Assembly (NCBI RefSeq): GCF_000177635.2
Contig: NC_014836.1
Location: forward strand, 2,588,001-2,652,000
DNA: 64,000 nucleotides
DNA from: Desulfurispirillum indicum S5
GTDB lineage: Bacteria > Chrysiogenota > Chrysiogenetes > Chrysiogenales > Chrysiogenaceae
Reading direction: 5' to 3'
Part shown: positions 17,805-63,432 of the stretch, in pieces
How the letters are laid out: the number at the start of each line of letters is the position of its first letter
Numbering within the stretch: position 1 is the stretch's first letter
Position numbers and translations under genes: made by a program
The notes under the pieces: generated by a model
What the model was told of the DNA's origin: nothing
Seen by the model: the letters and a program-made list of their open reading frames with translations, nothing else
The model's database searches: none

Positions 17805-18779
17805 TCAGTGGCGCTTGAACGTTTCCAGGAGCCTTTTGGCCGCCATTCCGGGCGTCGTCACGCCTTCGGCCACACTTTGCTGAATCTGGGGCAGGAGGGC
17901 TGCCACTTTGGGGTGGTGGTGAAAGCTGTACTTCAGGCTCTCCATCACGGTGCTCCACATCCAGTCCACGGCCTGGCGACGGCGCTTTTCCTCGAATTCC
18001 CCCGTTTCACTCATGGCCTCACGATAGGTTTCCAGCATCTGCCAGACGGTTCCCATGCCTTCTTTCTTCAGAGCGCTGACCAGGTGGACGGGAACCTGCC
18101 AGTTGGCGCTTTTGGGCTTCATGATGTGCAGGGCATTTTCAATCTGGCGCCCTGCCAGTTCAGCGCGAGGGCGGTTGTCGCCATCGGCTTTGTTGATGAG
18201 GATGCCGTCGGCTATTTCCATAACGCCTTTTTTGATGCCCTGCAGTTCATCCCCGGCATTGGGCAGCTGCAGAAGCAAAAAGAAGTCCACCATGGCAGCC
18301 ACGGCGGTCTCCGACTGGCCCACTCCCACGGTTTCCACAATGATCACATCAAAGCCGTAGGCTTCGCACAGCAGCATGGATTCGCGGGTTTTGCGGGCCA
18401 CGCCGCCCAGGGTATCGCCGGAGGGGGAAGGGCGGATAAAGGCATTGGTCTCCCGCGACAGCAGCTCCATGCGGGTCTTGTCGCCCAGGATACTGCCGCC
18501 ACTGATCTGGGAGGAGGGGTCCACGGCCAGCACGGCCACCTTTTTGCCCTGCTGCAGCAGGTACATGCCGAAGGCTTCGATAAAGGTGCTCTTACCGGCG
18601 CCAGGCACGCCACTGATGCCAATGCGCAGGCTGCGTCCCGTGCGCGGCAGCAGCTCCTCCAGGATGGCGGCCGCCCGCTGCTGGTCTTCGGGACGCTGGC
18701 TTTCTATGAGGGTTATGGCTTTGGCCAGGGCGCGCAGTTTACCCTGGTGGATGCCCTCAATGATTTGCTGGGGTGTCAT
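17805..18779 (-). CDS. meaB: MeaB/ArgK GTPase, methylmalonyl-CoA mutase chaperone
   Basis: This 324-residue G3E-type P-loop GTPase protects and reloads B12-dependent methylmalonyl-CoA mutase. GVPGAGKST (57-65) is the Walker A loop, AVDPSSQISGGSILGDKTRM is the switch region and family signature, VETVGVGQSE the Walker B region, and NKADGD the guanine-binding motif. It lies downstream of the mutase on the same strand with a 358-base gap that holds a MITE and a hairpin, so co-transcription is less certain than usual. Confidence 0.95.
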   Translation of the reverse strand: MTPQQIIEGIHQGKLRALAKAITLIESQRPEDQQRAAAILEELLPRTGRSLRIGISGVPGAGKSTFIEAFGMYLLQQGKKVAVLAVDPSSQISGGSILGDKTRMELLSRETNAFIRPSPSGDTLGGVARKTRESMLLCEAYGFDVIIVETVGVGQSETAVAAMVDFFLLLQLPNAGDELQGIKKGVMEIADGILINKADGDNRPRAELAGRQIENALHIMKPKSANWQVPVHLVSALKKEGMGTVWQMLETYREAMSETGEFEEKRRRQAVDWMWSTVMESLKYSFHHHPKVAALLPQIQQSVAEGVTTPGMAAKRLLETFKRH

Positions 18780-18807
18780 GATTCTCCTGTTGTCACTTTA
18801 CACGATT

Positions 18808-18963
18808 GTAACTCTTCACGGTGTAGCAGCACTCGCGCCCGCATTCCTCCCGGAGACACTCGCGTTCGTCCGTGGCTCGAATCTCCGTCGTTCGCCATCC
18901 AGGCTCGCTCTCGGAACACAGGCGCTCTTGCTGAAATACAGCTGCGAGACCGTGAATGGTTAC
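18808..18963. mobile_element. MITE copy 1, 156 bp, with 8-bp target duplication
   Basis: The ends are imperfect inverted repeats: GTAACTCTTCACGGTGTAGC on the left and GTAACCATTCACGGTCTCGC on the reversed right. They are flanked by a perfect 8-bp direct repeat ACACGATT (18800-18807 and 18964-18971). The inside folds on itself (GCGCC/GGCGC and TTCC/GGAA arms, GGAGA/TCTCC) and has no ORF. A second copy in inverse orientation lies at 63112-63268 with its own 8-bp duplication. It sits between mutase and meaB. Confidence 0.85.
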
Positions 18964-19074
18964 ACACGATTCTCTGTTGCCAAAGATGGTGCCACCCGCT
19001 TCGTGCCAGGCAAAGGCTCAAAAGCGAGGTTACCACCCACCCCCTTGGGGTTTCTCGGTGTCGAGATAGAACAG

Positions 19075-19137: not shown

Positions 19138-21276
19138 TTACTGCTTATCCAGGACTTCCAGGATGCGCTTGGCCGAATCGGTGATTTTGGTGCCCGGTCC
19201 GAAAATGCAGCTGGCTCCGGCGGCGTAGAGGTCATCGTAGTCCTTGCGGGGGATGACGCCACCCACGACGATGATGATATCGTCTGCGCCCAGTTTTTTC
19301 AACTCGGCGGCCAGCTGGGGCACCAGGGTTTTGTGTCCGGCGGCCAGGCTGGAAACGGCTACCACGTGCACGTCGTTTTCCACAGCCATTTTTGCACTCT
19401 CTTCGGGGGTCTGGAACAGCGGCCCCATGTCCACGTCAAAGCCGATGTCGGCCAGGCCGGTGGCAACGACCTTGGCACCGCGATCATGTCCATCCTGACC
19501 CATTTTGGCAACCAGGATGCGGGGACGGCGGCCATGCTTACGGGCGAATTCTTCTGTCGCTTTCTGCAGTTCTGCAAACATGGTGTCACCCTCATAGGAG
19601 CTGCCGTAGACGCCAGAGATCATCTGGGTATGGGCATTGTGGCGTCCGTAGACTGTTTCCAGGGCGTCGGAGATTTCGCCCACCGTGGCACGCACGCGGG
19701 TAGCCTGTACGGCAAGATCCAGCAGGTTGCCACTGTTGTCGGTGGCGGCCTGGGTCAGGGCGTCCAGGGCCTTTTGCACCGCTGCGCTGTCGCGGCTGGC
19801 GCGGATGGCTTCGAGGCGCTTGATCTGGGACTGACGCACGGCGGTGTTGTCGATGTCCAGAACTTCAATGGGATCTTCCTCCGCCACGCGGTATTTATTG
19901 ACACCGACGATGACGTCTTCAGCACGGTCGATGCGGGCCTGCTTGCGGGCAGCGGTCTCTTCGATCTGCAGCTTGGGCATGCCCGATTCAACGGCCTTGG
20001 TCATGCCACCCATGCGCTCAATTTCGTTGATCAGCGCCATGGCTTCATCGATGAGCTTCTGGGTCAGGTTTTCCATCATATAGGAGCCGGCCCAGGGGTC
20101 AACGATGCGGCAGACATTGCTCTCTTCCTGAATGATAAGCTGGGTATTGCGGGCAATGCGGGCCGAGTGGTCAGTGGGCAGGGCAATGGCTTCGTCCAGG
20201 GCATTGGTGTGCAGGGACTGGGTGCCGCCCATGACCGCCGCCATGGCCTCGATGGTAGTGCGGATAACGTTGTTGTAGGGGTCCTGCTCGGTCAGCGACC
20301 AGCCCGAAGTCTGGCAGTGGGTGCGCAGGGCCGATGACTGGGGATTTTTTGGATTGAACTGCTGCATGAGCTTGGCCCACAGGAAGCGGGCAGCGCGCAG
20401 CTTGGCGACTTCAGTGTAAAAATTCATGCCGATGGCGAAGAAGAAGGAGAGGCGTGGCGCGAAGGCGTCCACATCCAGCCCTTTGCCAAGGGCGCAGCGC
20501 ACATACTCCAGACCATCGGCCAGGGTGAAGGCCAGCTCCTGCACGGCATTGGCTCCCGCCTCCTGAATATGGTATCCGGAGATGGAGATAGAGTTGAAGC
20601 GGGGCATGTATTGGGAGGTGTACTCGATAATATCGGCAATAATGCGCATGGAGGGTTCAGGGGGATAAATATAGGTGTTGCGGACCATGAATTCCTTGAG
20701 AATGTCATTCTGAATGGTTCCCGCCAGCTGCTCCTGGGTGACGCCCTGCTCTTCAGCGGCCACGATGTAGCCTGCCAGAATCGGCAGCACCGCGCCATTC
20801 ATAGTCATGGAGACGGAAACCTGATCCAGGGGGATATCGCCGAAGAGAATCTTCATATCTTCCACGGAATCAATGGCTACTCCGGCTTTGCCCACATCGC
20901 CCACCACGCGGGGATGATCGGAATCGTACCCCCGGTGGGTCGCCAGGTCAAAGGCGACGGAAAGGCCCTGCTGACCTGCCGCCAGATTCCGCTTATAAAA
21001 TGCGTTGGACTCCTCCGCCGTTGAAAAACCCGCGTACTGGCGAATGGTCCAGGGACGCCCGGTATACATGGTGGCGCGTGGACCGCGAATGTAGGGAGCG
21101 AATCCCGGCAGGGTATTGGTATGCTGTACTCCCTCCATGTCCTCGGCGGTCCAGAGGGGTTTCATGTCAATATTCTCCGGAGTGCGCCAGGTCAGATGAT
21201 CCAGACTCTCCTTCTTGCACTCCTTCTTGGCCAGGCTTTCCCAGTCCTGCAGACTTTTGTGGGGAAATTCGCTCAT
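19138..21276 (-). CDS. Methylmalonyl-CoA mutase (single-chain, B12-dependent)
   Basis: This 712-residue cytoplasmic enzyme isomerises (R)-methylmalonyl-CoA and succinyl-CoA with adenosylcobalamin. The N-terminal barrel has [20 protein letters not shown] and the CoA-binding [17 protein letters not shown] region. The C-terminal cobalamin domain has the base-off motif DGHDRG (595-600) with the lower-ligand His597, and the SSLAAGH and GGVIP segments. Length equals that of homodimeric mutases. ATG 21276 follows AGGAG; the frame is open a further 57 codons upstream without a ribosome site. It works with the carboxylase genes and MeaB. Confidence 0.97.
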
Positions 21277-21499
21277 AAATATACACTCCTGGGTTTTTCG
21301 TAAAATGCGCTCCGCGTGGCTGATGACAAACAGCCCGCCGTGATCACGCCAGAGCGACAGAGACCTGGCCCTTGAAAATAAAACACTTTCAGGAAAATCC
21401 AGTTTTCTCTGCGCAATTTCGCTGATCTCGCCGGGCTGAACACACAAAACCGCACCAAAAGGCGTTGGCGCGTTTTAGTGAATAAAAAGCAGTTATAGT

Positions 21500-63081: not shown

Positions 63082-63111
63082 GACTCCCTCCCGAACGTTG
63101 TTATTATGGGG

Positions 63112-63268
63112 GTAACCACTCACGGTCTCGCAGTTGTATTTCAGCAGGAGCGCCTGTGTTCCGAGAGCGAACCCGGATGGCGAGCGGCGGAGACGTAGGT
63201 CCTCGGACGAAAGCGAGTGTCTCCGTGAGGAATGCGGGCGCGAATGCTGCTACACCGTGAAGAGTTAT
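63112..63268. mobile_element. MITE copy 2, 157 bp, with 8-bp target duplication
   Basis: The same element as 18808-18963 in inverse orientation, with conserved ends GTAACCACTCACGGTCTCGC and, reversed from the right, ATAACTCTTCACGGTGTAGC. It is flanked by a perfect 8-bp repeat TTATGGGG (63104-63111 and 63269-63276). The centre differs in places but keeps the pairing arms. It lies 31 bases upstream of the nitroreductase start and could influence its transcription. Confidence 0.85.
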
Positions 63269-63432
63269 TTATGGGGAAGCATAGCACAAAAGCCATCAGG
63301 GACGGACAGATCGGGAGAAAAGTCACAAAGGCCACGACCGCGCCGTTGCACCGGACGCATCAAAAACCTTGTCGCTGACCAGCCCCTTGGCGTATAAATT
63401 CACTTCTGTCAATTCTTCGCAGCGGAGTTTTC

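Follow-up and report, generated by a model that had tools for sequence, protein, structure and literature searches.

The window, a 64,000-nucleotide stretch of DNA from the arsenic- and selenium-breathing bacterium Desulfurispirillum indicum S5, carries two copies of a MITE. Copy 1 (156 bp, plus strand, positions 18808–18963) occupies the intergenic region between the gene for methylmalonyl-CoA mutase, which lies upstream (19138–21447, minus strand; Pfam PF01642 and PF02310), and meaB, encoding the methylmalonyl-CoA mutase-associated GTPase, which lies downstream (17805–18779, minus strand; Pfam PF03308, 370 bits). Its terminal inverted repeats, located by end-pattern search, are GTAACTCTTCACGGT at 18808–18822 on the plus strand and GTAACCATTCACGGT, as read on the minus strand, at 18949–18963; these 15-bp ends are alike at 13 of 15 positions. 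The unstranded 8-bp sequence ACACGATT is read directly on both sides of the element, at 18800–18807 and 18964–18971, so that the 156-bp unit with GTAAC ends and a perfect duplication described in an earlier note on this DNA proves exact.

Copy 2 is inverted relative to copy 1 (minus strand, 63112–63268) and lies upstream of a ferredoxin-nitroreductase gene. It spans 157 bp, including one end base altered to A, and the different flanks reported for it are borne out: the duplication, again perfect, unstranded and read directly, is TTATGGGG at 63104–63111 and 63269–63276. With at most one mismatch, the end pattern GTAACNNNTCACGGT matches the window four times, at exactly the ends of copies 1 and 2, versus a mean of 0.08 and a maximum of 1 in shuffled windows. 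A third copy was looked for in the 64 kb and none was seen. The element is short (156–158 bp), has no coding capacity and is bounded by terminal inverted repeats, as is characteristic of bacterial MITEs.

Distribution, target sites and probable exchange between genera

The class Chrysiogenia was represented by three genomes, namely that of D. indicum itself (G000), that of probably Chrysiogenes arsenatis (G001) and a third (G002) which we take to be Desulfurispira natronophila, of a different genus from D. indicum. A profile built from near full-length copies, and run on fetched stretches of G000 and G002, returned 36 copies in the former and 17 in the latter, 53 in total with differing flanks; a few of these keep the conserved core and have no ends. 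The D. indicum genome, of 2,928,377 bp (PMC3368425), thus holds 36 dispersed copies with unrelated flanks, a further MITE property. With copy 1 as query, BLAST gave 35 matches in G000 and 13 in G002, and in G001 a single match of 42 bp. Among the 27 of 53 copies that were aligned, those near full length that belong to the 156-bp class, identity averages 82% with a maximum of 99.4%.

The end pattern with at most one mismatch was found 54 times in G000, 36 times in G002 and 9 times in G001, compared with 3, 4 and 5 times for the reversed control. Without mismatch it was present in 12 of 384 genomes (19 times in G000, 10 in G002, twice in G001 and once in each of nine others), and about ten of the 384 had a single occurrence of its reversed control. 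Among these genomes the exact pattern is confined to G000 and G002, the other matches being at control level. It was found in none of 41 Desulfuromonadia genomes, chosen from an 80-locus set, and no match to the MITE was returned from the plasmid and phage collections searched. The family appears to be an orphan restricted to two genera. Crude ORF calling around 20 of the 36 D. indicum copies left ten without an ORF across the whole element and ten with one; some spanning ORFs are certainly spurious, copy 1 itself being called inside an antisense ORF, and an intergenic preference is consequently not established.

In 29 of the 53 copies both ends differ from the 14-base end at no more than two positions. 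Among these the flanking 8-bp repeats are exact in ten, differ at one position in five and at two in two, and have three or more mismatches in 12. When each left flank was compared with the right flanks of all other copies, there was no exact match in 812 comparisons, one with a single mismatch and four with two. At lengths of 4–7 and 9–12 bp, at most one exact repeat each was seen in the 29 copies, and the fixed 8-bp length (10 of 29 exact versus 0 of 812 in the control) is that of a MITE target-site duplication. Two of the other 24 copies, at 1018046 and 1063608, also have exact 8-bp repeats. If the ends may differ at up to three positions, the set grows to 32 copies, and the repeats of 17 differ at one base or none; these target repeats are 58% A+T and no motif stands out. 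The rule is true in both genera, as in the G002 examples AAATACTT, CAAGAATC and CACAGGAA. Counting against transposition as a full account, 12 of 29 copies lack a clear in-register duplication, as would be expected if they were old or rearranged. Flank exchange between copies without duplications was considered and discarded, the cross matches being single-mismatch ones of the kind given by chance. The many copies, their different flanks and a duplication far above control uphold the proposal of the earlier note that the segment transposes as a unit. That note had also named two grounds for doubt, a lack of further copies and a lack of an empty-site homologue in relatives; the 36 copies in D. 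indicum remove the former.

The latter is removed by the mutase/meaB pair, which is present without an element in both relatives. The gap between the genes (start codons inferred) is 358 bp in D. indicum versus 10 bp in G002 and 12 bp in G001. Since the element plus one duplication accounts for 164 of the 358 bp, the locus is empty in the relatives without matching an empty site base for base. The mutase and chaperone genes stand close together in both relatives and are split by copy 1 in D. indicum, so that an effect on expression could be tested.

Another copy, at G000:1850800, occupies the same place as the G002 copy C12:38221 within a segment with 95% identity between the two genera. This segment (L132 in G000, L137 in G002) extends over at least 2.68 kb and holds cobalamin-type genes, as judged by eye from translation. 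The MeaB protein, by comparison, is 81% identical, and the difference suggests horizontal exchange in which the MITE travelled with the segment. The copy at 1850800 is itself inserted within a repeat resembling TGGATGCGCTGCGCTTATCCACC, which recurs at several places in G000 and G002 (L132, L137, L145, L165, L192, L196 and L218).

Other repeats were observed in these genomes. A second family, with ends of the MITE kind (GTAACTATTCACGG), is represented by a copy of about 240 bp at G000:1324983–1325222 (L150:1484–1723) and by another at G000:2192793–2193954 (L149:2994–4155) that is broken by an IS4/5-type transposase gene. Near 8-bp duplications, GAAAGGTG/GAAAGGAG and TTGCTTTA/CTGCATTA, accompany this family, the core of which has 42 matching places in G000, mostly without MITE-like ends. 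In G002 there is a longer class of about 190–203 bp (for example L148:1525–1727), with a different core and the same ends, and some of its members have duplications.

Search for a parental element

The IS66 family is described as having a 20–30-bp terminal repeat beginning GTAAGCG and 8-bp direct repeats (PMC11946415), with GTAACCG ends in some members (PMC12888890); its 8-bp duplications are also given in PMC3916326 and tabulated in PMC3281130. Ends starting with GTAA and 8-bp direct repeats are common to IS66 and the MITE, most copies of which start GTAAC. Over the first seven bases the MITE has GTAACTC or GTAACCA rather than GTAAGCG, and past GTAAC its ends are unlike published IS66 ends. 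The remark in the earlier note that its author knew no named element with such ends is answered in part, the combination of GTAA with an 8-bp duplication being a recorded hallmark of IS66. The two also differ in size and content, IS66 elements being about 2.5–3 kb with transposase genes and the MITE 156 bp without any.

The genome-wide transposase search covered one Pfam family, PF03050 (the IS66 TnpC transposase), for which none of the three Chrysiogenia genomes had a match above the cut-off. The sole match in the D. indicum genome (21 bits, below the cut-off) is an IS6-type transposase according to Pfam and not an IS66 parent. At L040 in G000 (about 6.3–9.6 kb), an IS6-type transposase gene assigned by Pfam, presumably IS6100-like, adjoins frames resembling, by eye, a cation transporter, an acetyltransferase and a sul-type dihydropteroate synthase, as in class 1 integron remnants.

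A full-length IS with the same ends, which the earlier note had proposed to look for, was not found in the three genomes by end pattern or by PF03050, the most promising unpaired ends having been read; nor were paired ends (at most one mismatch) enclosing their own transposase seen there. Bacterial MITEs usually have such an autonomous counterpart, although it is no requirement. Several candidates for a long element were rejected. The ends at 129309, 132476 and 135701 on contig 22 of G001 sit in flagellin-like genes (by eye, from translation), the pair 2358003/2361775 encloses ordinary genes, and 2192793–2193954 is the interrupted copy of the second repeat family. In the nine other genomes of the 384 with single end matches, inspection by eye revealed no partner end and no recognisable transposase among the listed ORFs.

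Folding, spread and the mobilising enzyme

The MITE folds into a long hairpin with imperfect pairing. The MFE is −56.2 against a mean of −47.3 for shuffled sequences (z −2.35 as RNA, −1.37 as DNA), and the self-folding attributed to the 156-bp segment is thus real but modest. In the consensus structure 97.5% of 835 cells pair. Pairs with double changes number two, versus 1.6 expected from shuffles; the cells with double changes number five, a count at least matched in 5 of 500 shuffles, but they come from a single helix, and relatedness alone can give such a count. Covariation is not clearly above the shuffles, which leaves selection on an RNA without firm support. Two versions of the hairpin loop occur, TGG-CTCGAG and AGGACCTACG (columns 62–76 of alignment A1). 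Copy 2 carries the AGGACCTACG version (about 63200) and its closest relatives elsewhere in sequence carry the other, a discrepancy that suggests exchange between copies.

The hairpin, its almost complete pairing and the few copies that keep the core without ends would suit a structural intergenic repeat of the ERIC, REP or BIME kind, spread by other means and kept for its RNA or DNA fold. The exact 8-bp duplications already refute this as a full account of the spread, the lack of covariation clearly above shuffles speaks against it as well, and no Rfam family matches the MITE; we regard it as very improbable. A chance repeat or an assembly artefact, already refuted by 53 copies with different flanks in two genomes, has practically no likelihood. 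For a unit with these ends, copy number and duplication length, spread over two genera, the probable explanation is a MITE family mobilised by a trans-acting DDE transposase, seemingly of IS66 type, that was lost or was never resident, leaving the copies stranded. GTAA ends and 8-bp duplications together point to an IS66-type enzyme. Less likely is that the same MITE is moved by another 8-bp DDE family or an undescribed one, possibly still encoded. IS256/Mutator-like elements, ISL3, IS1595, ISAs1 and IS6 also make 8-bp duplications, and both the lack of an IS66 transposase in the three genomes and the single Pfam family spanned by the search leave room for them; against them, their ends usually start with GG or CAGG, not GTAA, and no paired-end element with its own transposase was seen in the three genomes.

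Mobilisation by an IS66-type transposase would start with recognition of the 156–158-bp non-coding palindromic unit at its GTAAC...CACGG ends by an enzyme supplied in trans. The element would be excised or copied and then inserted at sites of little specificity, where an 8-bp staggered cut would yield the 8-bp direct repeats. The most likely parent is an IS66-type element that has been lost; if the enzyme disappeared from the three genomes examined, or never resided in them, the copies would have been stranded. More tentatively, and on balance doubtfully, GTAAC-N3-TCACGG ends may define a Chrysiogenia-specific set of non-autonomous elements with one mover, lost or undescribed, the three genomes being without an IS66 transposase. 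This set would span the 156–158-bp elements, those of about 200 bp in G002 and the second family of about 240 bp.

Comparison with known elements

The MITE family is real and well supported, and it documents such elements in a sparsely sampled phylum, where a transposon family apparently outlives its enzyme. The duplications and the shared 95%-identical segment are markers for transposition and for gene exchange between the two genera. As far as the searches extended, the family is unreported in the Desulfurispirillum group, though ordinary in kind. This claim of novelty is made because the literature searches gave no earlier report: no paper joining Desulfurispirillum with a MITE was found, and none on its insertion sequences or transposases among the matches listed. 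The available portion of the genome paper (PMC3368425) has no word on transposons.

ERIC, REP and Correia repeats are likewise intergenic, palindromic and dispersed, but have other sequences and hosts, and the D. indicum MITE has a demonstrated 8-bp duplication. MITEPsy1 and MITEPsy2 of Pseudomonas syringae are described as small, non-coding, inverted-repeat elements (PMC3189936), as is the D. indicum MITE. For MITEPsy1, of 100 bp, mobilisation in trans has been proposed, with ISPsy2 of the same strain as its likely parent (PMC3189936), whereas no parent was found for the D. indicum element. Both duplicate their target, MITEPsy1 over 4 bp and the D. indicum MITE over 8 bp.
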